Assembly (NCBI GenBank): GCA_964036045.1
Contig: OZ038379.1
Span: 82,298,562-82,362,561, forward strand
Direction of reading: 5' to 3'
DNA from: Eutreptiella sp. 'Long Island Sound 2002'
Lineage: Eukaryota > Euglenozoa > Euglenophyceae > Eutreptiales > Eutreptiaceae
DNA: 64,000 nt
Position 1 is the first letter of the stretch. The number at the start of each line of letters is the position of its first letter. Below, piece after piece: positions 1,346 through 62,105 of the stretch. The position numbers and the translations under genes were made by a program. Under the pieces are notes generated by a model, which worked only from the letters and a program-made list of their open reading frames with translations, made no database searches and was not told the origin of the DNA.

Positions 1346-3998
1346 TTGGATGTGCGGCCCAAAAGAATACCACCACAAAAAAATTCGCTGAAATGGTGTG
1401 CTTGCGGCACAAAACACCCTTAAACCCGCCCCACAGACCTTTTTTTTCAAAAAAGGAATGGGTTTTGCAAAAAACCCCCACGGTATTGGATTTTTGAGAC
1501 ACCCCTCCTGGCGTCCCAGATATCGTAACCACTGGAGAACATAATTTTGTACCACAAAAACCTTATACTAGGGAGGAAAAGTGTTGCATTCTTGCTGCAC
1601 ATCGATCACCAACTCCAAAGTCTTTGCCCCAAGCACAGTACAGGCCACTCAACACGTGACAGAAAAACGGGTGTTTGGAGCATATGCCACGGACATCGTG
1701 AAAGGTCAAATTCAAACCGATGCAAGGGTGCACCTTTATCACATGGTCTGTGTGGCCATTGCTTGCAATAGCATGTGTGAAGCCACAAAACAATAATGCG
1801 GGTGGAGATCTCATGCACATGCTAATGGGCAACGAACGGTGGATATCATGGTAAACAAAGGATATTGTATTGTACAAACAAAGATCAATGCACAACGACT
1901 TACATGGTGAAAGACGGCACATCTGTAGCTTAGCGTGCAACCACTACTTTGAGAACGCAATTTTCGTTGCTTGGTCAGCACCGCAAAGGATGTATGGAAC
2001 GTCATAAGCGCGTATGCACCACTGTTGACCATGACCTTTGCAATCACCTTTACAATTGTAGACATGTGGTGCACATACTAAAGTAGCAGGGCTGCGGTTG
2101 GTCTCCCTTCAATTGCGAAGAGCAAAATATCGCAAACCACAACGCATTGACACCAACGGAACAAGCACGTTGTATTATGTGCGAAGGAGTTGCTGAAGCT
2201 GGCACTTGCAAAGGTCTAGAGCAATGAGGAGTCCATAGGAAGGCTGCAAATGAAAATTGTAGGTGGGGGTATGAGGGTAGGGCGCATGAGAGTACGCCGC
2301 GGATGGACAGACAAAGTGCGAGCACTAACAAATGCGTTGACTTATTAACCTTTTGATGACATTTGATTACACACCGCTGCACGCCTGCAAACGGGGTGAA
2401 AGTACAAAAACAAGAGTGTTGGACATGTATTCGAAGCCCAGAAAAACATTGCGAGAAAAACATTGTGAATGTAGTGTGCTAGCACTTCACTATGTAAAGC
2501 GCAACATGCACGAAACCCTACTAATTGATGTGTAAAAGCTTGATTTGCCATTGCCGAGCTAAACACAACTACCCAGCGGCGCCAAACCGAGTACAATTGC
2601 CAATGACACCCTCCACAACACATTGTAGTTCAAACATCGCCCAGAGGCGATGAAAGGAGGTACCATATAATCTACACACAATGTTGTTTTTGCTGTTTCA
2701 CCTACCAAACATTGCGGTTCACCCGTGCCCTCGACAACAACAATAAGCAAAAACAGTCATGTTGTACACGACAAAAAGGGATGATGGAGGTTGTTGGCGG
2801 GAACCCCAAAAGGCGCCACAACATACCTTGCAATCACACATAACCGAGTGCAGCATTGACCCATTCCATCTCTGCAACAAGATTCCTTTTCCGAGGTAGC
2901 TTTGAGTGTAAACCTCAATTAAACGTGCTTCTGGCCCGAATGCCGAAAAGGTGCACAATGAAAAAAAGGTGTGATACATAGCCTTGCAACAATATTTTTT
3001 CTATGTGCCACACACCATAAACCATGGGGCAGTGTATCGGCGTGGAAATCCTTGATATGGAAACTGGCAGAGGACATATTTTGTGCCAAAGTCCAAAAAA
3101 ATTTATACTAGGGAGGGAAAATGTTGCATTGTTGGTGTATGTCAATAACCAACTGTAAAATCTTTGTCACACAACTAGGGAGAGAGAAAAGGAGTGTTTG
3201 AACCATAGGCTAAGGACACCCGTCCGCTTCACATCTAGAGCGGACACAGAACATCCTTCAAGCGAAAGGAGCCCTGCTAGGCAGGCGACTTCGACATTAG
3301 TTGCCAACAGAGGATGTCAGTTAACAACTTCTCTTGCAAAGTCGGCCTATCCGGAAAATCTACACACCACTTCGGCGTCACCAATTGCCCCTCCCTCCCT
3401 CCCGAGTGGCAATATGCAAAATCAAGTAGTGTACGTGAAGTAGATGCCATGATTCGGTTCTCCAACTACACACAAATTTCGTAAACACCCATGCTAAATG
3501 AATATATTATGGTGGTTTTTAACGAACAGACCACGGAATTTCACTAAAGGGGGTGTTTACGTACTACTATTGTTACCCCTTGATTCCAAAGTCATCACAC
3601 AACACAGCTCTACGGCGGCAGTAATTAACATGAAAAACAAGGTGCATTCGATGATTAAGAGAGGCACCACCAAAGCATACACCTGTATTTCCTATCTTAA
3701 TGAAGCTGGCCGAAATTTGGCCCATCTTTTTGAAAAACATGAAAATAGATAGGCTTATTGACCAAAACAAGCCCAACTGGCGGAAATTCCGGCTACGCCC
3801 GTCACAGGTGGCCCGTCTCCTCGCTTTTCGACGCGACTCCCCCTCCCCCCCAGTAGAAGTGGGCCAAAGGCCCCTGGGGGGGGGGGGCTTTTGGGGGGGG
3901 ACGCTAGCCGCCGAGGAGGGCTTTTCTAAGGCATTGGGTAGAAAAGCTTCAGCGGACATGAGGGTAGCAAGGGGGTACCGGGTACGGCCCGGAAATCC
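1346..3998. other. No gene recognised; dispersed repeats
   Basis: There is no convincing coding sequence. Two segments resemble each other in direct orientation (about 1560-1630 and 3100-3170, sharing TATACTAGGGAGG and TGTTGCATT). The segment at about 2905-3035 recurs inverted at about 4955-5070. These look like remnants of unclassified repeats. Confidence 0.45.
2905..3035 (-). repeat. Dispersed repeat, inverted mate at 4955-5070
   Basis: Reading this stretch on the minus strand gives the same order of words as 4955-5070 on the plus strand: CATGGTTTATGGTGTGTGGC, then AATATTGTTGCAAGGCTAT, then a TCATTGTGCACCTTTTCGGC-like end. The pair is diverged and spaced about 2 kb apart. Confidence 0.6.
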
Positions 3999-20617: not shown

Positions 20618-21231
20618 AACATTGCAACCATGGGCACGCCGCAGGTTCAGCCGGTCTTCGACGTGCTGTATGCCTTCCGTGACGAAGTGTCGCGAGTAAC
20701 GGGGGTGCCCATCAGGCAAGGACCCGTAGTCGCCGTATTGACAAGCGGAGACAGAGGCGTCTTTGTCTCAGGTCCTCACGGATCAACAGGCCCTCGCGTG
20801 GCGGGCCCGGGAGTTGTGGAAACGCGACGCGGAGGGGGCAAGGCTCGCCTCCAGAGATGTAATCGCGCTGTTGCAGCACCTCCGGCAGGTGAACCCCCAA
20901 TTGTCCCCCGCCACCATGGAGGACTTGTGCGATGCTCTGGATCACCAGCTTCAGCAGCTTGACCTGCTTGTGGAAGAGCTCAGGAGTTTTCTCATACGCA
21001 ACCGGCGCTGGTCCATCAAGGACTACAGGCTGGGCAAGGTACCGGATTTGCAGCTCCGTTCGATGGCGATCCGCCGGGCCATCAACGTGGTTAGCTATGT
21101 TCCCTCCGGCTGATGGTTGGTATGCGTCCCGGAGTCGGAGAAAGTGCTGATGGAGGCCTCAGAGCTCATTGGGGAGGTCGACAGGTCCTAGGAGGCGCTG
21201 TATGCCAAGAGGCCGGTGACCCTACCGGCCT
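20618..21231 (+). pseudogene. Linker between endonuclease and reverse transcriptase
   Basis: Open frames continue in phase after the TAG (NIATMGTPQVQPVFDVLYAF) and in the frame starting 20763 (ELWKRDAEGARLASRDVI). This is Leu/Gln/Glu-rich sequence like the helical linker before LINE reverse transcriptases. TGA at 21111 and TAG at 21189 fall where CGA and CAG would keep the frame open. Confidence 0.55.
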
Positions 21232-22812
21232 TTGAAAGGCTGGTCCGAGCCCACATCGCTCGTGATGGACGAGTGGTCGATACAAAACTACAGCCTTCAA
21301 GACCTCAAGGACGCCGTGAAGCAGGCTGTGGCGGACGACAAGGCGCGGCTGTCCAATAGAGTCAAGGCGGCCTTCATCGCGGAGCTGCCCGAGCTGGTGC
21401 AAGGTCTCCCGGTGCACGCCTACCAGGCCATCCTCCGTGGTGCAGAAGTGCCGGAGTCGTGGCATGAGACCATCGTCTGGCTGATGCCCAAGGGCACGAC
21501 CACAAGGGACTTGGATGCGTACAGGCCTATAGCGTCGGTACAACAGGACATGAGAATGCTCATGACTCCCCTAATGCGGAGGTTCACCGCAGCCGTGGCT
21601 CGTAAGGGAGTGGCTGCCGATTGGCAGCTCGGGGCCATGCCGGGCTCAACGGCGGCGGCCCCGGTGTTTCTGGCACAACGCCGACTGCAAGGGGGACAGG
21701 AGGAGAATCATGTCGTGGCCTTTGATGTCTCCAAGGCCTTCGACACCGCCCCGCATGGAGCTCTGGCTCTCCTCTTGCGCCACATGGGGGTCCCGGAGGA
21801 GGTTATAATGCTCCTCCATACCTTTAGCTGCGGTTCCACAATGCGCATTGTCATGGCGCACTGTCCCACCCCGAGCATCCGCCTCCATCGAGGCCTAAGA
21901 CAAGGCAGCGCGGAAAGGGCCGTGCTCCACCTCCTCCTGCTCGAACCCCTCTTGCGGAGCCTTGCCCGCAAAGCCCAGGGATTTGCCCTCCATGCGGTGC
22001 CGCCTATGGTACATTCATATTGTGACGACCTCTTGCTGATAGCGCACTCCTTACCGCAATTCCCGGAGTACGCAGCGGCGGTTGCGTATAACTTGGCGGA
22101 CATGGTCATGTCCCTCAATGTTGGCAAGCGTGTGTACACCACTACCACTCGCGTCCCCTCCATCATGGTGCACGTGCGCAACGCGGTAACTCCGTGGGTC
22201 TATCTGGTGGCCATGAGTGCTGTGCCGTACCTTTGCCTCATGCTGGATCCGAAAGGAATGGCATCCATGAGGGAGAAGCATGTACTCCGCTGCGAATCTC
22301 TCCTAGGCTGCATGGCAGCAGTGGTGGGTGGCATTCTGCGGTATGCGGTGCCCTACCTGTCGGACACTTCGAAGGAAGTGGTGATGTTAAACGTTGCCAT
22401 CAAGACTGCGGCCTTGCAGTTTGAAAACCTGTTCAAAGACGTGTCCAATGTGGTGGTGCGGTGTGGTAAAGGGCTTAAGTTGGCGGATATTCGGGCCCTG
22501 TGCCGTGACTCTGTGCCAGTAACTTTGGCTCATCTCACGCATCATCGCTTAGCGGTGATCAAAGGTGAATTGAGAGCCATGCTTGACCACCTGCACACGC
22601 AGTATGCGTCGTGGTCAATTCATGGTTCATTCCACGTCCTTCGTGTTCTATGCAGGAGACACGTGGGTCGACCGAGTGCTCAGAGCGATGGGGAAGATGG
22701 GAGTTGGACTCCTCATGCCGTCATCGGTGTACTCGTGCGTGCACACCCATCTGCTGCAGGTGCAATGGGCTGGACGGCGGTGGGCGACACGTTCCTACAC
22801 CTTCAAGGGTAG
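21232..22812 (+). CDS. Reverse transcriptase domain of the non-LTR element
   Basis: An uninterrupted 526-codon frame carries reverse-transcriptase motifs. MPKGTTTRDLDAYRPIA matches the KxxxxxxxxxYRPI entry motif. FDVSKAFDTAPH is motif A with its catalytic Asp. HRGLRQGS corresponds to motif B, though the usual SP that follows is lost. SYCDDLLLIAH is motif C with the catalytic YxDD-type pair. It copies element RNA into DNA at the nicked target. The first ATG is arbitrary; the frame is part of a longer polyprotein. The degenerate motif B and flanking breaks argue it is no longer active. Confidence 0.9.
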   Translation: MKGWSEPTSLVMDEWSIQNYSLQDLKDAVKQAVADDKARLSNRVKAAFIAELPELVQGLPVHAYQAILRGAEVPESWHETIVWLMPKGTTTRDLDAYRPIASVQQDMRMLMTPLMRRFTAAVARKGVAADWQLGAMPGSTAAAPVFLAQRRLQGGQEENHVVAFDVSKAFDTAPHGALALLLRHMGVPEEVIMLLHTFSCGSTMRIVMAHCPTPSIRLHRGLRQGSAERAVLHLLLLEPLLRSLARKAQGFALHAVPPMVHSYCDDLLLIAHSLPQFPEYAAAVAYNLADMVMSLNVGKRVYTTTTRVPSIMVHVRNAVTPWVYLVAMSAVPYLCLMLDPKGMASMREKHVLRCESLLGCMAAVVGGILRYAVPYLSDTSKEVVMLNVAIKTAALQFENLFKDVSNVVVRCGKGLKLADIRALCRDSVPVTLAHLTHHRLAVIKGELRAMLDHLHTQYASWSIHGSFHVLRVLCRRHVGRPSAQSDGEDGSWTPHAVIGVLVRAHPSAAGAMGWTAVGDTFLHLQG

Positions 22813-49961: not shown

Positions 49962-50940
49962 ATGTCCAGCGGGCAGTGGATCCCCATGTCCCAGATCGGG
50001 TCCCTCTCCCTCCCCGACCGGGCCGACGGCACCTTGGGCTAGTACCAGGGCCTCGCCCTTCGCGCCGGCACGTTGGAGGAGGCCACGTACACGGGGGGCC
50101 TGGCAGTGGAGGAGGTGGTGGGGTGGGCGAAAGGGTTGGCCATGCCCCCCCACGTGATCCATGTGGACATGCGCACCCCCGCAAGGGCGGGACGGTGGGG
50201 GAAAAAAGGTTGGGCCACTCTTCTTTTCCGGGAGTTGCAGGTGGTCCTCCTGGGGTTGCGGGTCGTCCGGCTCATTCCCGCCCGCGACTCGGTGGAGAGC
50301 CTTTTAGGAATCATGGCCATGCACACCGTGGGCAAGCCCAAGCCTGGCCTTTGTGCCATCTACCCCACCACTGGCCTCGTTCACTGCCCCATGAGGATGG
50401 ACATGATTGCCATCAATAACTATTGTCCTGTCGGTGAGCCGCAGGCTAACCATTCTAACCTTCCTTTTCAATGGCAGGGAGTGCAGGCCCAGTGGTCGGA
50501 CGATATGGGCATCTTGCCCAGCCACCCGACCCTGCCCCCTCTCCACCACATGTCCGATATCACCGTGCCCACTCTCCATAGGATGAAGGGGCTCGGTCGG
50601 TATCGGGGAATCGCGGACCCCCCCCCCTTTCATTACGCCCGAGCCCCCCTTGCGCACGGCACCCCTGCAGGACCCCCCCTCGTATGCCACCGCTAACCCC
50701 TCCGTGAAGGCTGACCACCCAGCCCCCCCGATGGCCGTCAACTTCGTGGACGGCCTCCGCTACACAGTCCACCGCGATATTCTTTTGCGGAGGACTGCAA
50801 GACCACCTGGGCGAAGGTGGAAAAAATTTAGGGGGGGGGACCAAGTTCCTCAACACTTTGACCCGGTGTTCAATGTGAAACCGGTGGAGGACCAGAGGAA
50901 GGTCCCCACCCTTCCTCAGCGGTACCAGTCCAAGCCCTCC

Positions 50941-50945
50941 AAAAC
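50941..50945. repeat. Left target-site duplication of transposon B
   Basis: AAAAC, repeated at 57470-57474. It lies inside the coding sequence of gene A1. Confidence 0.88.
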
Positions 50946-50970
50946 CTTAGGCGGCTCTATACGCACGTAG
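50946..50970 (+). repeat. Left terminal inverted repeat of transposon B
   Basis: Perfect 25-base match to the inverse of 57445-57469. It includes GGCGGCTCTATACGCACG. Confidence 0.95.
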
Positions 50971-51157
50971 ACTTCGTTGCTAAAAGGCACGATTCATGGC
51001 GATTTCAACATCCGTTTTTTGCACCCAAAAAAAGCATATCATTTTTTCGGCCAACCCCACGTGGATTTTCATCGTGGGATACAACAACCTCGCCTTTTGT
51101 TGCTTCCAGAGGTGTACGTATACACCCCCTATTCCGGGCTGAGAATTGTATCATTTA

Positions 51158-51189
51158 AAATTTTTGGGCACTGCAGTGCCCAAAAATTT
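51158..51189. repeat. Palindrome B-P1 (subterminal)
   Basis: Perfect 32-base palindrome: core GGGCACTGCAGTGCCC with AAATTTTT and AAAAATTT arms. It is the most complete copy of the family. Confidence 0.95.
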
Positions 51190-51406
51190 GAAATGGCTTT
51201 TTTCAGTGGGTTCTCCAGTACACCTCTGTAGTCATCTCCACAGGTGATGTCATACTGCAGCAGCATGCATCAAAACTTGGCATACCCGTTATCCATGGGT
51301 CATTGCACCGCGGTGTTATACTCGGAAGGCCACGTACAATGTACCTTGCTAAATCACTTCCATTCCTGTCCAAATGTGCACTTGAAAATGGACTTCCAGT
51401 ACTTTT

Positions 51407-51422
51407 GGGCATTGCAGTGTCC
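51407..51422. repeat. Palindrome B-P2
   Basis: GGGCATTGCAGTGTCC, two mismatches from the core, upstream of gene B1. Confidence 0.85.
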
Positions 51423-51689
51423 AAAAAATTGAAAACTCCGTATTTCACTCCTATTGGTTCCCATTGCGTAACACCTGACAAAGGACGTATGAATCATTGG
51501 ACGTTGGTGCTCATCCTCTGCTCATTGGAAATATATTGCTGGTTGTCTGACTGCCACCTTGGAGTGTACTAGGTTTTGGAACGTCCCACGTCCATTGGGG
51601 GATACATTGTTTGGATCTTCGCTGGCAGCTTTTGGTCTATGCCGCATCAGGTTTGTTTTGTGATGGTGCCTCTGTTTTCTTTGTCCCCT

Positions 51690-51722
51690 TACCTTTGCTG
51701 CCCGCGAACAGGACTTTTGTCC
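51690..51722 (+). promoter_or_regulatory. Probable 3' splice acceptor upstream of gene B1
   Basis: TTGCTGCCCGCGAACAG is followed by GACTTTTGTCC and then the ATG at 51723. A T-rich tract lies just upstream (51655-51690). Confidence 0.5.
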
Positions 51723-54031
51723 ATGGATGCGGCTCCCTTCCGGCAGTTCCTTAGTTCGAAGGTATATGCTTCAAAGGAGGATGTATTTGAGGCTGTGGGT
51801 GTGGATAAGGGTGCCGATGCGTTTTGTACGTGGGTGTTAGATCTCCGGTTGGAGTGGAGAAGTAGGCGGTCTGTTGGTGAATACATCCAACAAAGGGACA
51901 GACGGACCGTTAATTGTCTGCCGGACCAATGGTTCCGTGTTGCTGAGCAAGAGATTTTTAATATATGGTCTGTTCTACACAAGAGGTGTCGTCCACGTGC
52001 CAAGAGGGCTGTAGGTGTCCAACCCAAGAGTCGTGTGCAACGTAGGTGTTTGGCTCACATGGGTCAACGTTCTTACAATGTACCCTCCTTTGCAGTTCAA
52101 GGAGCAACTGCGTGCACCAGTCTTTGGCAGACCTTGGAAGGTAAACCCGCTGTTCTATGGTTTGATAATTTTTATAGACGTAACCTCCGGCCTGTGCCTG
52201 GTAATGAGAACCGGTCCCTTAATTGTACAGCTGGTGCTATCATACTCTTGAAACGACCTGTCGACATTATGCCGTCTTTTCCTAGCCTCTCGGTCTTGCG
52301 GCAGAGGATTGTTTACATTGCAGACTTGTTGGTGCAGAGCCATAAAAACTTCATTGGTGGCTTGCAAGGGTTGATGGACGACCCCATCCGCCTTCAACAT
52401 GTTCGTTGTCCCTTGGACATACGACGGGATAATGTTACCAGCCCAGCTTGGACCCCCTTTTTTCTCACAGACCTAACTGTGTCCGCTACCCCCGACCTTG
52501 TCTCTATTATTCACGGGCTCCAGGAGGTGCAGCAGCACACACAGCACCGTCTTCCATTGTTGGTCGACGAAAATATTCACCACCGTGTCCTTAAGCTCGT
52601 TTACAACATCAGCTATGCTTGGTACAACGTGCCCCTATTCTTTACACGTACCCTGGTAGTGTACGGCACATGGCACCCATATAAATATTGTGTAACCCTG
52701 TGCTGCGGAAGATTCTTCCCTTTATTTACCTATTTTTCCTATGGTTCACTCAATTTGGGCACTGCAGTGCCCAACTTTCCGAAACTCATCTATATGGAGC
52801 GTATGATTCTGGTGCTCTTGCACTTGGCCCATAAGTGGCGCCAACCTTTGGAACAGAAGTTACAGATCTAAGGGGTTTGCACCGACCGGGTAACGCTAAT
52901 CACAGCACACTTCTTACACAGATGCAAGGGTTGGTAACACTGCTGTATGGTTACATTTCAGCCTTGTTTATTATTGGGTCGCAAGTGAGGGATTGTCATT
53001 GGTCTGCACAGGGAGAGCAGCACGCTGCAGGGCCATTGTTGAGCCGTTGTCTACACGTCCTTCTGAGGCTCACCCTAGGTTATGAGGGCAAGGTTGAATA
53101 TGTGCGCACCATTGTTGTTGCTAGGCTGTTGTGGTCCCACTGGTTTGCCCGCTTACCTGGGGTGGCACACAGTGAGGAACCGTGTGAGGCCCTGTTAAGC
53201 CGTGTTGTGCACTTAATGGCACAACACCCTGGGAACTGTACGTTGCAACAGGTGCAGGACCTGTTTATACTCACTCCCGTTGCAGACCAGACCCCAAAGG
53301 ACCTGCAGTACGTTAATGTTCCCAAGGGACTACCACAACTGGTTGATCGTCGTTTCACCAGATTGATGGCGCGGTTTGATGTTGGTGTTATACCCCCCCT
53401 GGTCTGGTCCAGTCAGAAGTCGAGTATCGTGCAAGACAGGTGGGATCCTGCCAAGATGTATTTTCCTTGCGCACTAGATACGGTGCTCACTGCAGAGCAT
53501 TACCGAGATCTATGTGCCAAGACATTGCAGACACTTGTTAAACGTGTTAAAGTTGATGCTCACGTGATCCCAGAGCTGGGTAGACACGTGCCACAACGTC
53601 CTCCAGGTGATATGGACACAACAGTAGCAGAGGCACAGGACATGTTACGCGCATGTAATACACCAGACCGGTACAAGCGACGCCGGCCAGCACGCGCTTT
53701 TGCGCAAAGGGACCCCGCCCGGATACCCGCCCCCCCCCAATGCTGATGGCGACAGTGACAGTGATGAGGACCCCCCCCCCCCCGCTGGTGGGGCAGCCGG
53801 AGATCCAGACCTGAGGGCTGCTGATTTTGTGGGTGATGATGGATGGGACCCGGACCCCCCCCCCCTCCAGAAGCAGTGTCTGTTCACAGTGATGATTCCG
53901 ACGCCCCCGTGGCTGTCTTTTCGGAGCTGAATGAGTTTGACCCTCGATTTTTACCAGGTGCATCCGACTGTGATGCTATTTCTGCCATCTGTGTTCAATC
54001 GTCGAGCGCTGCCAGTAGTCATCAACATTAG
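51723..54031 (+). CDS. B1: probable transposase of transposon B (two exons, acidic tail)
   Basis: Exon 1 is 51723-52743 (start MDAAPFRQFLSSKVYASKED). The intron 52744-52856 contains palindrome P3. Exon 2 is 52857-54031. Joining them keeps one frame and gives about 730 residues. Notable strings are VLWFDNFYRRNLRPVPGNEN and LPLLVDENIHHRVLKL, each with an Asp at the end of a hydrophobic strand as in RNase H-fold DDE transposases, then TWHPYKYC and HSEEPCEALLSRV with candidate Glu. The C-terminus is a disordered acidic tail (DGDSDSDEDPPPP). The tail changes frame at C9 53730-53738 and C11 53855-53865, which looks like homopolymer error. The transposase call rests on being the larger gene of a TIR element and on this pattern. 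Confidence 0.55.
52744..52856 (+). other. Intron of B1 carrying palindrome P3
   Basis: 113 bases, GTTCAC...GGAACAG, phase 1. The palindrome core is at 52757-52772. An alternative intron, 52692-52921 (GTAACC...ACACAG), also keeps frame, but it removes the RFFP segment and is longer than its sister introns. Confidence 0.6.
52757..52772. repeat. Palindrome B-P3 (in intron)
   Basis: Perfect GGGCACTGCAGTGCCC core, with TT/AA extending the symmetry. Confidence 0.95.
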
Positions 54032-54094
54032 AAGCCTATAAATCAACAATTTGCAGCCCTGTGGCCTTTTGTAGTGTGTCGTGTGACCCTTTGT

Positions 54095-54112
54095 TAGCCC
54101 CTTTGCTAAGTT
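54095..54112 (+). promoter_or_regulatory. Probable 3' splice acceptor upstream of gene B2
   Basis: CCCCTTTGCTAAG is followed by TT and the ATG at 54113. Confidence 0.4.
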
Positions 54113-56788
54113 ATGCCTTCTGATACCGAAATGCCGGAAGGGGATGAGCAGCAAACCGCATCGCAAGCCGTTCACACAGCGGAGAAGACACGGGCGCAGT
54201 CGGGGCAGGCTCCAGTGAAGCGGACGGGGACAGACCGGGCAACGGAAACATCCCGGACAACGTGGATCAAAAAGGAGCTGGTCAAGATACAGCTGACCAA
54301 GATAAAGTTTGACACCGACCTCACGCGTGGGCAGACCAGAGAGATGGACGAGGACTCAGTACTATCGCGGATCGCAAGCCTGAGGACAAATCCACCCTGC
54401 CGGCCTATCTCAAACATTCTCATATGGCGAAACGAAGATACACTACCATCCTGTCACACACGCGTCGTAATTTTCACAAAGTCTGGTCGTTTGGGCACTG
54501 CAGTGCCCATCTCGCTGATGTCCCCCATCTACCATCTCCTTGTGGTGCATTTTTCTATCAGCTGAAATTCCCTACTGCTTGGGCGGGGCTCATATCCTGA
54601 CGGCACTCCAAAGACTTCACCGAGAATACTGTGAGAAGTCACGGGCACTGCCGGACTGGTTACAACACGTCTACTGCGAGGAGATCAGACACGACTTTCC
54701 TGTTGACATCAGAGAGATTATTGGAGGCGATCACAATGCGGTACAACACTCAGTGAGCAAGCTGAGTATGGGACAAGGGGCCGCTTGAATTTGGACTGAA
54801 GTGCAGAAGGGCAAAGCGAAAGAGATGCTGCTGGTGCCTCTGCGGAAGTGTGGCTGGCGGGGCGAGAAAACATCTGTGGTATGAGAGATGCACGATGAGA
54901 CCACCGTTGTCAGTCCTTTGCGTACCTGTGGCCTGTCCAACAGTGTATCCCTGCCAGGACTCAATCTGGAAAAATTGGAGACCGCTGGTTTCATTACTGG
55001 AGATATCTGGTGGCCGCGTGGCTGAGTTTATTGACACCTTTGAGAAGACTGCCGGTGAAGGTATTATGTCCTCTGAGCACCTGTTTTCGTCGTCTTTTGG
55101 TGTTCATGGGAACTGCAGTGCCCAAATTCGATGCGACCCTAATTTTTGCACTGTTGTGCTCAACCCCTACCCTCTGCGGCCGTTGACGGGACTGCATGGC
55201 GACCAGATGGATGAAATACTGCTGTACATGGCTGGAGATGGGGCAAGATCGCAGGACTACATGTCAAGGCCAGACTGTTGAAGCGGGGCCGCCTGTGGGA
55301 GATGCTGTACCTTCACCTGGACAACACGCTCATCCATCCTTCTCGACGTATGTTTATGGGGCAGCTGGGTCTGGCGCGATCGCTGTTGACCCCCCCCCCC
55401 CCGAACCCACGACGTAAGGCTGTTTCGATCCCAGTGGTACCAGTGGTCTCCTGTTCTAACAGCGAACGTGCATGAAATGCAAAGAGTCCGCAAACTGCTT
55501 GCAAAGTCGCCGAGGGCCGCCAAATTGTCACTGGGGAAATGGACCTGGAGTGCCGAAAATCCCTTACCAAGCTGGGACACCATCCAGAAAGCACCGCTGT
55601 GGCAGGATGAGGAATGGGCTGACCTGAGGATTGCACTGGCGAGGCTTGTCAAGGAAACTGCAGTGACAACGACTGATGGGGAGAAATCAACAACTATCTA
55701 GCTCAACAAGCCGCAGGATGGGATTGAAGCAACCGGAGCTCGGGCAAAGGCAATTGCGTTGGTTCCTGGCAAGGCCATCCCGTATACAATTGCATTGAGG
55801 GAGTACAAAGCGGTATGCAACCATTAGGCATAAGAAACGGATCGATTTCGCATTGCTGGTCACTTTAGGCACTGCAGTGCCCATATGTAATGAAATGTGC
55901 TTTTGACAACAGGTCTTCATTGAGTGTACGAAGGAACAAATGGACGATATCCATCCCCTGGTGCTGAAGGTTGCTGCGAAGTTGGTACCTGTGGCTATTG
56001 GTGGAATGGCGGCCGATGTTAAGTTCCTGGTTAATCAATTGCGCGACTCTGAGGAGTGTGGAGGCTGGCAGTAAGTATATTATGACCTCTTTTTTTTATC
56101 AGGCAGTCGGTCACCCGACCTATCGGTTCGAGGAGAGGACTATTTGCTTCTGTGTTCCCGACAAGTTTAGGGTGAAGGTCCCGAATATTTTCATTTGCGA
56201 TCAGGGTGCATACGGCAGCACCATTGGTCTGGCAGCGGCTGCTTGGCTCTTGCGTGTGCTTGGTATTGTTCCCCGACGCGACAGACAGTCCGAGGATGAA
56301 GTCTGGCTCCTGCTTTTGACAGCATCGGCTGTATTGCTAGCACAGCTCCTGTCCTGCCTTCTTGAGTCCCCCTGTCTGGCAGCTTGCTTCACTGGGCGCC
56401 AGGGTTTGTTTAACCAATTCTGTGAACAGCTAGCGGCGTATGTGCAGGAGATGGATTGTGTATACTTGGGTAACTGGGAAGCTTGGATGCCAAGGATTAG
56501 GGACTGTAGCCAGTTGTGGTGCAGCGGCCTTGGGAAGGGGAAGATGAGGAGGGGGGGGACGATGTGGAGGAAGAGGAGGATGACGAGATCGTGCTGGTCG
56601 GAGGTGGCGACAGCAAGAAGAGGAGCACCCCCAGCAAGAAGAAGCCGTCCTCCGACGACAGTGGGGATGAGGTTGATGATCCCCCCAAAAGGCCAGCCAA
56701 AAAGGCCAAGGACAGTACCCCCCTCAATATGTTTCACGCCAAAGTAGGTCAGGCCAAGGGTAAAAAGGCTCCACCAAAGAAGAAGTAG
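54113..56788 (+). CDS. B2: second protein of transposon B, unknown family, multi-exon
   Basis: Exon 1 is 54113-54466 (charged; TSRTTWIKKELVKIQLTK). Exon 2 from 54562 joins in frame and contains PYCLGGAHILTALQRLHREY ending near GGDHNAVQH. The GGxH...helix...N pattern is reminiscent of ParB/sulfiredoxin-type folds (weak). A probable intron spans 55061-55254. The next exon includes RLWEMLYLHLDNTLIHPSRR, VRKLLAKSP and ALVPGKAIPYTIALREYKA to 55812. An intron follows at 55813-55912, then an exon 55913-56070 (FIECTKEQMDDIHPLVLK). The last part ends in an acidic then Lys-rich tail (KKAPPKKK, TAA-type stop TAG at 56786). It is interrupted by TGA 54786, TAG 55699 and C13/G8 frame changes at 55390 and 56551. 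Possibly a DNA-binding partner of the transposase. Confidence 0.45.
54467..54561 (+). other. Intron of B2 carrying palindrome P4
   Basis: 95 bases, GTAATT...CTATCAG, phase 1. Removal joins two long open frames exactly. The palindrome core is 54493-54508. Confidence 0.8.
54493..54508. repeat. Palindrome B-P4 (in intron)
   Basis: Perfect GGGCACTGCAGTGCCC core. Confidence 0.95.
55061..55254 (+). other. Probable intron of B2 carrying palindrome P5
   Basis: GTATTATG...GATCGCAG. Removal links the frame containing GGRVAEFIDTFEKTAGEG to the frame containing LHVKARLLKRGRLWEML. Other boundaries are possible because two upstream frames are open here. Confidence 0.45.
55108..55123. repeat. Palindrome B-P5 (in probable intron)
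   Basis: GGGAACTGCAGTGCCC, one mismatch from the core. Confidence 0.9.
55813..55912 (+). other. Intron of B2 carrying palindrome P6
   Basis: 100 bases, GTATGC...GACAACAG, phase 0. It joins EYKA to VFIECTKEQ in a continuous frame. The palindrome core is 55867-55882. Confidence 0.82.
55867..55882. repeat. Palindrome B-P6 (in intron)
   Basis: AGGCACTGCAGTGCCC, one mismatch at the outer base. Confidence 0.92.
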
Positions 56789-56916
56789 ACTGCGTTGTGC
56801 GGTTTGCACTGCCTGTGTCCATGTCAGTAGTTTTTTCGCCTCGATTTGCACACTGTCGCGCGTCCTGTTCTATGCAGGTGTGAGACTGGTGCCCTTTTTC
56901 ATGTTTTGGTAATTTT

Positions 56917-56932
56917 GGGCGCTGCAGTGCCC
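56917..56932. repeat. Palindrome B-P7
   Basis: GGGCGCTGCAGTGCCC, downstream of gene B2 and 545 bp from the right end of B. Confidence 0.9.
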
Positions 56933-57247
56933 ACATTCAGCGACTCGCCATTTTTTTTACCCCTGCTGCGCCATTTCTTTTGCAGGCATGGTTGCCGTCA
57001 TTTATTATTGCATTGGCTGCACTGGCGGCGCCTCTGTTGTTTGTCGGCACCACTGATGGTGCATTATTCTTGACGCTTCGCATACAATCACAGTGACTGG
57101 GTCAGCAGACGCAGCAACAAAAAGCAAACCACAGTTTTGCATGTGTTTGCCTGTCGTCCTCTCTGCTTCATTTTTTAGGCTGCATTTTACGGCATGGTTT
57201 GAAATGCAGCAGCGGATGATTTGGAAGAATTGGATTTTTCTTTGGAT

Positions 57248-57263
57248 GGACACTGCAGTGCCC
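57248..57263. repeat. Palindrome B-P8 (subterminal)
   Basis: GGACACTGCAGTGCCC, 214 bp from the right end, the counterpart of P1 at 228 bp from the left end. Confidence 0.9.
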
Positions 57264-57444
57264 AAATTTGAAGGGGATACATGACTTTTGACTGGCACAT
57301 GTTGTACCCCCTACACACAGTCATTTTGGATAATTCACAGGTTTTTGGGGATGTACCCTGCAAAGCACAATTATGCAATTTTTCAAAGTGGTTTTTTAGC
57401 CCCCGTTTAGGGGTGGTACCCATTTGGGAACTGTGGCAATTTTG

Positions 57445-57469
57445 CTACGTGCGTATAGAGCCGCCTAAG
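57445..57469 (-). repeat. Right terminal inverted repeat of transposon B
   Basis: Exact inverse of 50946-50970, followed by the AAAAC duplication. Confidence 0.95.
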
Positions 57470-58397
57470 AAAACCGGGGGGCTGGCTGGTGTCCTTATTA
57501 AAAAGTTTATTAACTCCATGCAGGAGTGTGTCCCCGATCCGTTTGAGGACTTGTTTGAGATGCCGTGTTCGGTCATCGTGTCGGGTGCTGAGTTGGGGGA
57601 CCAGCTCCCGCACACGGATGTCTCCACCGCCCCCGACATGCTCCCCCCCCTTGACCACCACCCCTCCAGCTGCCACATCTCCACCTTCGTGGCCCTCTCC
57701 CCCGAATACCGCCTCAACATCCAGGCGGGAACGGTGCTGGGGGAGGCCACGGAGCAGAGGTGGGACGAGGTCCTCCTCCGACAGGGGGAGGTCCTCGTCA
57801 TGGTCAGCACTGCCCGGCACCTCGGGCTCCCCTCTCCCCCCGGGCAAGAGATGCAGGGGGCACTGTTTACGCAGTGGACCCCCAATCGGCGTCATTCGGG
57901 GGTTAAGCCGAATACGACGCATTTGGACCCCTCCACCCCCCTGGAGCTCAAGGACTGCCTCAGCCTGCTGGGATGTTGGAGGGAGGGGGAGGACGTGCCC
58001 GCGTTCGGGCAACTGTTGCTGTTGGGTGTCGGATTGGAGGCTCGGTTGGGGCTGGCCAACCGGGACGTTGTGGACGACATCTTCAGCCCCCCGAGGTGCA
58101 GCCAGGCCCCTCGGTGTGCACACACCATCCCCTGTTCCTCTCCCGCTCCGCGCACGGCATCTCCCCCGTCACCGTGCGCGAGGGGGAAATCCTCTTGTGG
58201 AACGGGGCGTACGAGATGGAGGTGGTGAAGGCGGACTCGACGGACGGGGACGCTGAGGTGACGTGGGCACTTGGGGCTACGCTGCCCTCCACGCGCCCGG
58301 CCCCCGCATGGCGGCTGCTACACGTTCGCCGGAGTGGAAGCTTGCGAAGGAGTCCAAGAAGGGGACGTGGACTGTGACCTGCCCGTGTGAATGCGAG

Positions 58398-60160: not shown

Positions 60161-60310
60161 ACAGTATTTTTGTTTAATAGTGGTTCCCAACTCATGGGGT
60201 GTACAAATGTGTTGTACAAATTTTTTGTTGTGTGGTGGATGCCAATGGGGCTACTGTGTCTGACTTTCTTGACTTTCATAAACAACATGCATTGCCTTTT
60301 GCCTATTGTC

Positions 60311-60323
60311 AGTGTTTTTTGTC
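60311..60323 (+). promoter_or_regulatory. Probable 3' splice acceptor upstream of gene A2
   Basis: TTTTGCCTATTGTCAG is followed by TGTTTTTTGTC and the ATG at 60324, the same layout as upstream of A1 and B1. Confidence 0.55.
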
Positions 60324-62105
60324 ATGGGACGTGGCAGTGGCGACAAGGGGAAGAAGGCCTTTGCCCATGTCAAGTCTAGGCAGCACCGGGCCCGCCGGTT
60401 GAGGACACTGCAAGAAGTTGTATCGGGGGAACTAGGAGCCGAGTACCTGGTGAGGCACCTCCCGGACACGGGGCAGATTGTCCTCACGCCGGTAGACAGG
60501 GGGGGGGAGTGGTGCTCTACCCACTACACCATCCATGTGGGAGAAGACCGTCGCAGCGGTGTGGCGCATCCGATCGCTGCGCAGTACCTCACTCCCCATT
60601 TAGTGGAGGGAGTACCATGGGAGGACGTGTGGGTCACCATGCAGCAGCTTGCGCAGCCCGCATCGGAGGGGTTTGTAGCCAAGACGGGGGATGACACGGA
60701 GCTATACGGAACCTTTTGCCCGTTACCGGCGCGGTTGCAACATTTGTACCGTTGCCGACCAGTTGAACCCGCCCACGTCCAACAACCGGGCAATCCAAGG
60801 CTGCATTGGATGCCACTAGCAGTGGACGGCACGTCGCGGCACGAGGCGTCCTTGGTGCATTGCACCCTCCGGGGTACCCGTAGCCCCGATCAACTAGCAA
60901 GTTGGTGGCTATTGGGGGGTAGTGAGGAGTGGTCGACCTTGTACGCGGCTGCTCAAGAGGTGGACTTCGACGAACAGTTGTGGGATGCTAGTAAGGTTGT
61001 CTTCCAAGACACTTCCGGTGCCGACCGGGAAACACTTTTCTTCCTCTGTGCCGATGGCAAGGCACAAATCTTGATGGCCAATTGTACAAATTTCAAACTC
61101 GAGGCTCCACGAGCCCTGGTTTGTTGGGTTTGCCGCCGCAATAGGCCAGACTGCCTTGCCAATTTTGGCTTGGAAGCCACCATTGACGGGCAGTGGGAGA
61201 TTGTGCTCCCCATGGGAGCCATATATAGACACATCCCAGCCAAACGTCGCATTCCCTACTGCGGGTTGCACGGGGTGCTGCGGGTAACTATTTGTGGTAT
61301 TTCCGGCATGAGGGATGCGGTGTCGGCTGCCACTGGCAAGTCCGCGGCGGTCGTCGCCCGCAATTTTTTCGAACCGATCTCAGATGTTGCCCGCATGGCA
61401 GCCAAGACGGTAACAAAGGGTAGGATGGCAAAGGGCAATGACACCGCCAACACAAAGGCAAACGTTAGGCTAGAGTGTGCCGCGGCTGTGCAACTCATGC
61501 GCACCCGGAGGTGGGAGGCACTCATTGCCGTGTGCCTTGAAGAGGGGCGAATGAACAACAAGCGGGTGGGGGGAAAACCAGGGGGGGATGTTTGCAGGCA
61601 GTGGTGGGACAATTTTGCCAAGATGTGTATATATGCATGGCGGACATCTTGGCTGTCCGGGGCAGACCTAGGAAGATTACGTGACTGTAGCATAGCAATG
61701 GGCAAAGCCCACTTACTCTTGGAATGGCCTAAGCTGCTGTGGTCACATTTGTGGATTGACCACATGTATTTTTTTGCCAGCCAATGGAGAAATCTCTCCA
61801 AATTTTCATGCTTCACCATGGAAGGCAGCCACCGTAGGCTCAGGCGCATGTTGCGCAACAGCGGGGGCCTAAGCCTTCTGCGTGGGCGGCTAGGTGTGCG
61901 GGTTGTCGTTGACAACCACACCATAGACGACAGCCTTTGTGCGGAGGGGTGGGACGTCACAAAGAGGTCCATGCGTGGGCACGGCCCTGTGCCCGTACAG
62001 CAATTGGCTAGGCGGGCCCGCAAGAGGGCCCTTAGTGACCTCAACTATGTACATACCCTTACGCAACGTTTCAGACGCCGCAAACAGCGCAAACAGCCAG
62101 CATAG
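60324..62105 (+). CDS. A2: DDE-like transposase of transposon A
   Basis: An intact 593-codon frame starts MGRGSGDKGKKAFAHVKSRQ (basic N-terminus). The start was chosen because it follows the acceptor by 11 bases; an upstream in-frame ATG at 60306 precedes the acceptor. FFLCADGKAQILMANC gives a strand-ending Asp. ALVCWVCRRNRPDC has a CxxC that could bind zinc. YCGLHGVLRVTICG follows. Near the C-terminus, WIDHMYFFASQWRNLSKFSC and FTMEGSHRRLRRMLRNSGG supply a candidate Glu on a helix. The order Asp strand, insert with Cys, helix Glu is that of RNase H-fold transposases with a domain insert. The basic C-terminus ends RRRKQRKQPA. It is one of the few unbroken genes in the window and could be functional. 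Confidence 0.65.
   Translation: MGRGSGDKGKKAFAHVKSRQHRARRLRTLQEVVSGELGAEYLVRHLPDTGQIVLTPVDRGGEWCSTHYTIHVGEDRRSGVAHPIAAQYLTPHLVEGVPWEDVWVTMQQLAQPASEGFVAKTGDDTELYGTFCPLPARLQHLYRCRPVEPAHVQQPGNPRLHWMPLAVDGTSRHEASLVHCTLRGTRSPDQLASWWLLGGSEEWSTLYAAAQEVDFDEQLWDASKVVFQDTSGADRETLFFLCADGKAQILMANCTNFKLEAPRALVCWVCRRNRPDCLANFGLEATIDGQWEIVLPMGAIYRHIPAKRRIPYCGLHGVLRVTICGISGMRDAVSAATGKSAAVVARNFFEPISDVARMAAKTVTKGRMAKGNDTANTKANVRLECAAAVQLMRTRRWEALIAVCLEEGRMNNKRVGGKPGGDVCRQWWDNFAKMCIYAWRTSWLSGADLGRLRDCSIAMGKAHLLLEWPKLLWSHLWIDHMYFFASQWRNLSKFSCFTMEGSHRRLRRMLRNSGGLSLLRGRLGVRVVVDNHTIDDSLCAEGWDVTKRSMRGHGPVPVQQLARRARKRALSDLNYVHTLTQRFRRRKQRKQPA

Follow-up and report, generated by a model that had tools for sequence, protein, structure and literature searches.

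Element B of Eutreptiella, a young cut-and-paste transposon with a predicted DDE transposase and a 16-bp palindrome repeated along its length

We analysed a stretch of 64,000 nucleotides (hereafter the window) from Eutreptiella sp. 'Long Island Sound 2002' (assembly GCA_964036045.1, contig OZ038379.1, positions 82,298,562 to 82,362,561 of the forward strand), in which an element termed B occupies positions 50946-57469. The B family proved to be a recently active, mobile cut-and-paste transposon bounded by terminal inverted repeats (TIRs), and the window holds a degenerate copy of this young, high-copy element. B carries two genes, B1 and B2, and eight occurrences of a 16-bp palindrome. In the reading that we favour, with a probability of about 0.6, B is a DDE transposon of unassigned lineage and its palindromes would be sites for a dimeric protein, perhaps encoded by the element itself.

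The boundaries of B in the window are as follows (the duplications carry no strand).

50941-50945: left target-site duplication AAAAC, from the sequence; the empty-site join restores an open frame
50946-50970, plus strand: left TIR, 25 bp, one of a perfect repeat pair
57445-57469, minus strand: right TIR, 25 bp, the other of the perfect repeat pair
57470-57474: right target-site duplication AAAAC, from the sequence and the empty-site join

The TIRs, which start with CTTAGG, match perfectly over 25 bp; allowing up to 3 mismatches, the window holds no further match to them. When B (50946-57469) and one AAAAC were removed, an open reading frame became continuous across the insertion site. The initial annotation had described an element with 25-bp TIRs and a 5-bp duplication, and the perfect TIRs, AAAAC flanks and empty site bear this out. 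The reading frame split by B comprises window positions 50587-50940 and 57475-58228; the joined protein had no Pfam match and holds a PHTD motif, which we take to recall 2-oxoglutarate dioxygenases.

To place this copy within its family, we searched the genome (2.28 Gb in 2205 contigs) with the first 225 bases of B. This gave 521 candidates, and the 40 of the 521 that were scored, the window copy among them, were all 98-100% identical over the full query. Twenty-two genomic loci (20, with 2 added later) were examined together with the window copy. Fourteen copies, including that in the window, were full-length (6.46-6.53 kb), and each was flanked by a matching 5-bp duplication; the mean pairwise divergence was 2.8% (13 full-length copies). 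TIRs and a duplication of fixed length at independent insertions, as expected of a cut-and-paste DNA transposon, were thus observed. Among the nine other copies, five had matching 5-bp duplications (L019, L020, L024, L030 and L034), L022 matched over 6 bp instead of 5, L025 had no matching 5-bp duplication, and the right ends of L023 and L029 were absent from the stretch examined. The right flank of L025 starts with tcttaggcg, and a second B-like end seemingly abuts this derivative. Six copies were deletion derivatives of 1.9-3.3 kb, in which the left end was retained over at least 366 bases and the right end over at least 791.

Gene B1 lies in the left half of the element.

51723-53740, plus strand: B1, predicted DDE transposase, one exon; in this copy with a frameshift at about 52857-52874 and a further frame change in C-runs after about 53735

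B1 had initially been described as intron-bearing, with an intron at 52744-52856. We rejected this intron, since 13 of 14 copies read through the interval and 12 of 13 distant B1 relatives (26-41% identity) align unbroken into it, to at least 52808, while the thirteenth, P0010, ends upstream. The P0001 protein family (288 members) likewise reads through it. In 12 of the 14 copies, the peptide encoded by the palindrome in B1 and residues past the interval share one frame, and L015, missed by the palindrome-peptide match, has a 599-codon open frame spanning it. Only the window copy, among the 14, shifts frame in this region, and this is why the interval resembles an intron. All four B1 landmark peptides stood in one frame in seven of 14 copies, six of which are open from position 548.

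An RNase H fold had been proposed as a check on B1, and this fold was indeed predicted. The structure model (predicted local distance difference test score, pLDDT, 84.7) is RNase H-like and DDE-transposase-like, with the P element and Hermes as its nearest structural neighbours. Conserved columns supply the D/D/E residues in their canonical order, namely D148, D282 and, as the likeliest third residue, E486 (P0001 numbering). The features of a DDE transposase, an RNase H-like fold and a conserved D/D/E triad, were thus found in the predicted model, its neighbours and the conserved columns. We conclude that B1 is predicted to be a DDE transposase with an RNase H fold, in which a helical insertion precedes the presumably catalytic Glu.

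Sequence searches did not assign B1 or B2, in agreement with the initial statement that neither protein family was recognisable: no credible match was found for either in Pfam, NCBIfam, PHROGs or PDB sequences. For B1 in particular, 26 members searched against Pfam at E up to 10 gave none. Profile matches were only weak and single (for example NUDIX_4, E 0.0057, one member; EST1_DNA_bind, E 0.018, three members; a PHROG, E 0.073, for P0028), and the PDB sequence searches gave one match, to ribosomal eL14 (E 0.036). A search for B1 relatives in phage records, viral contigs and prokaryote genomes yielded nothing useful, its single weak locus lying apparently in a phage; the TIR prefix was not found in viral contigs, and an Rfam search gave nothing informative. 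Literature searches returned nothing on the B family, which does not show the family to be unpublished.

B2 follows B1, and four open stretches were found repeatedly across its copies. These led to the following inferred structure.

54113-54437, plus strand: B2 exon 1, inferred, mapped from copy L013
54438-54561, plus strand: inferred B2 intron 1, 124 bp; 12 of 14 copies retain the donor GT, which the window copy has lost
54562-54878, plus strand: inferred B2 exon 2, broken in this copy
54879-54957, plus strand: inferred B2 intron 2, 79 bp, without a palindrome
54958-55812, plus strand: inferred B2 exon 3, broken in this copy
55813-55912, plus strand: inferred B2 intron 3, 100 bp
55913-56788, plus strand: B2 exon 4, its frame broken in this copy; the C-terminus is of low complexity, basic and acidic

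The introns were picked from many frame-keeping GT-AG joins by donor, pyrimidine tract and exact frame. An intron at 54467-54561, given initially, was replaced, its frame soon meeting a stop; the donor at 54438 was preferred over 54467 because it joins the frames and 12 of 14 copies retain its GT. For intron 1, the donor GT and the acceptor AG were intact in 12 and 12 of the 14 copies, for intron 2 in 14 and 13, and for intron 3 in 14 and 14. This is consistent with the B2 introns and no proof of them, since recent copies would keep the sites anyway. A codon-usage scan gave too weak a signal to place introns. The claim of two intron-bearing genes was therefore kept for B2, with its introns putative, and abandoned for B1. 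Searches with the B2 protein retrieved only proteins of its own family among the best 8000 candidates. In copy L016, element positions of about 3480-3830, in the region of B2 intron 1 and exon 2, show an apparent inversion; the palindrome there is shifted about 66 bases to the left, and the adjacent letters read as the reverse complement.

The palindrome has the sequence GGGCACTGCAGTGCCC (16 bp), and its eight occurrences in B, as initially counted, were found at 0-2 mismatches (they carry no strand).

51166-51181: palindrome 1, exact and non-coding; its arms, 95% complementary, reach 22 nt each; exact in 12 of 13 copies
51407-51422: palindrome 2, two mismatches in this copy, non-coding
52757-52772: palindrome 3, exact, in B1 coding sequence
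54493-54508: palindrome 4, exact, in inferred B2 intron 1
55108-55123: palindrome 5, one mismatch, in the open frame of B2 exon 3
55867-55882: palindrome 6, one mismatch, in inferred B2 intron 3
56917-56932: palindrome 7, one mismatch, downstream of B2
57248-57263: palindrome 8, one mismatch, downstream of B2

Within B the palindromes start at 221, 462, 1812, 3548, 4163, 4922, 5972 and 6303, so that the outer pairs are indeed near-symmetric from the ends. At up to 3 mismatches the whole window contains 10 matches, of which two lie outside B (25709 and 58640); window shuffles gave 0.76 on average and 3 at most. The CTGCAG at the palindrome centre is also a symmetric CHG methylation site. Genome-wide, the exact motif occurs at 866 sites and a reversed control at none. 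We sampled the first 50 of the 866 listed sites, all on one chromosome. They formed 25 clusters, every one of them B-derived: 12 had the B spacing and the other 13 matched B by BLAST (15 short loci included). In this sample, then, the possibility that palindromes are scattered without relation to B, which the genome-wide check was meant to expose, was rejected. Three loci with the palindrome were seen in viral contigs.

It had been proposed that all four internal palindromes lie in introns, that every intron has one and that the motif is kept out of coding sequence. Only the sites at 54493 and 55867 conform, both in inferred B2 introns; inferred intron 2 (54879-54957) has none, and the sites at 52757 and 55108 lie in open frames. 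The B1 site is translated as Gly-Thr-Ala-Val-Pro, for which the exact motif is one of 1024 synonymous spellings; it was exact in 11 of 13 copies, although these share recent ancestry. The site at 55108 is translated within GNCSAQ of B2 exon 3 and is open in L013 and L031; an in-frame intron around it is conceivable. Altogether, the palindromes seem to be retained as motifs in the DNA irrespective of their place, whether non-genic, in B2 introns or in the B1 and B2 reading frames, and their link to introns is incidental.

Further evidence came from a relative of B. At four of the 15 short palindrome loci, similarity to B was limited to its first 239 bases. Three such elements, termed B-prime (L050, L051 and L052), are each 3412 bp long and 97-98% alike. 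Two have exact duplications and the third has ATAGA versus ATGGA. They share 239 bp at the left end and about 620 bp at the right end with B at 91-92% identity; bases 240-446 and 478-700 align to B no better than the best shuffles, and tblastn with six proteins of the B1 and B2 families found no match in the three elements. Allowing up to 2 mismatches, their interiors nevertheless contain 3, 2 and 3 palindromes, versus 0-0.002 expected. In two of the three, a palindrome with one mismatch lies 240 bp from the first (in L051 it has 3 mismatches), the B spacing being 241, and the right pair is spaced by about 330 bp in B and B-prime alike. Since these loci were chosen for an exact palindrome, site 1 is biased and the interior sites are not. 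In all 21 matching duplications (14 full-length, five shorter and two B-prime copies) the middle base was A or T, and a target preference is possible.

In the mechanism that we propose, B1 would act on the 25-bp TIRs, cutting there and joining the element to its target with a 5-bp stagger, which would yield the 5-bp duplications. A dimeric protein, most likely B2, would bind the repeated palindromes and might assemble or regulate the transposition complex, by analogy with the subterminal repeats of CACTA and hAT elements. B2 is the first candidate as the only other gene found, with a charged, basic tail at its end.

Several observations weigh against this interpretation. Profile searches recognised no DNA-binding domain in B2. 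A Foldseek search with the B1 model gave no match with E below 0.001 (template modelling scores, TM, 0.24 and 0.30), and E359, E485 and E489 are likewise conserved in the family, which makes E486 only a tentative third catalytic residue. In recent copies the palindromes mutated less than their flanks at five of the eight sites and more at three, with small differences. All six deletion derivatives kept palindrome 1, and the two right palindromes were present in them when up to 3 mismatches were allowed; yet every one lacks at least three internal palindromes and L019 also lacks palindrome 2, which indicates that most internal sites are dispensable for mobilisation in trans.

This loss of internal sites from mobile derivatives would suit a different binder, with the palindromes bound by a host factor, or acting as a silencing or replication signal, instead of serving a protein of the element. 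Sites throughout B, and within B-prime elements devoid of B1 or B2 homology, fit that idea as well, whereas a general host site would be less expected to show the B-derived origin of all 25 sampled clusters; we regard this alternative as possible, though not the probable answer. A second alternative concerns the transposase, which would represent no new lineage if B were a very divergent hAT element of the hAT5-like group. Hermes, a hAT element, is among the nearest folds to the B1 model. According to PMC12730594, most hAT elements have 8-bp duplications and hAT5 elements 5 bp, so that the 5 bp of B fit hAT5 only. On the other side, the 26 B1 members had no hAT Pfam match at E up to 10. The hAT TIR consensus also differs from the start of the B TIR, and we consider a hAT origin unlikely. 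The palindromes could, thirdly, be passive relics of an old internal duplication, functionless now. Their mutation, not clearly lower than that of the flanks, would agree with this, but site 2 of B-prime keeps its spacing (240 versus 241 bp) in surroundings that align no better than shuffles, and the motif remains exact within B1 codons in 11 of 13 copies, albeit copies of recent shared ancestry; a relic is thus quite improbable. Lastly, the confinement of internal palindromes to introns, as modelled in the initial annotation, is hardly credible despite the two sites in inferred B2 introns, given the B1 site read through in 13 of 14 copies and in relatives, the exon 3 site open in two copies, and an inferred intron 2 without a palindrome.

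The 16-mer is found alike in non-coding ends, in introns, in reading frames and in a relative that lacks the B genes, and with this array the way in which a transposon marks its DNA could be tested directly. The B1 family, with its DDE-like predicted fold and no database model, could join the eukaryotic superfamilies, and recent copies are available. It is possible, though not probable, that B1 founds a new eukaryotic DDE superfamily, with selection maintaining a body-wide palindromic operator array even in coding sequence and in relatives lacking the B genes; the transposon would then be marked or packaged lengthwise by its own dimeric protein and not recognised at its ends only.

Two other reading frames were noted in the window. 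The 607-codon frame at 60282-62105, for which Pfam gave no match (E up to 1), is perhaps another transposon gene, and the 530-codon frame at 21220-22812 contains YCDD, which we take to be a reverse transcriptase-like motif.

KDZ (Zisupton) elements have an 8-bp duplication, as stated in PMC12730594. B differs from them by its 5 bp and had no KDZ Pfam match. We took B1 to resemble DUF6589 proteins; the 26 members gave no match to DUF6589 at E up to 10, the presence of this model in the Pfam copy used being unchecked. P elements generate an 8-bp duplication, in contrast to the 5 bp in all 14 full-length B copies, and B1 had no P sequence match; the P element is among the nearest folds to B1, yet absent among the 50 Foldseek matches listed. 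Transib elements share the 5-bp duplication with B, but their termini begin with CAC and those of B with CTTAGG. The C(2)C motif that Transib and RAG1 carry between the second Asp and the Glu is not conserved in B1: CxxC occurs in four of 26 members, and C425 is the sole Cys column conserved at 70% or more. CACTA/EnSpm elements combine a transposase, a second protein and many short motifs per element. B differs from these in TIR and duplication length, in the lack of a sequence match and in a motif that is a palindrome placed along the whole element, reading frames included, but it resembles them in having two proteins and many short motifs.
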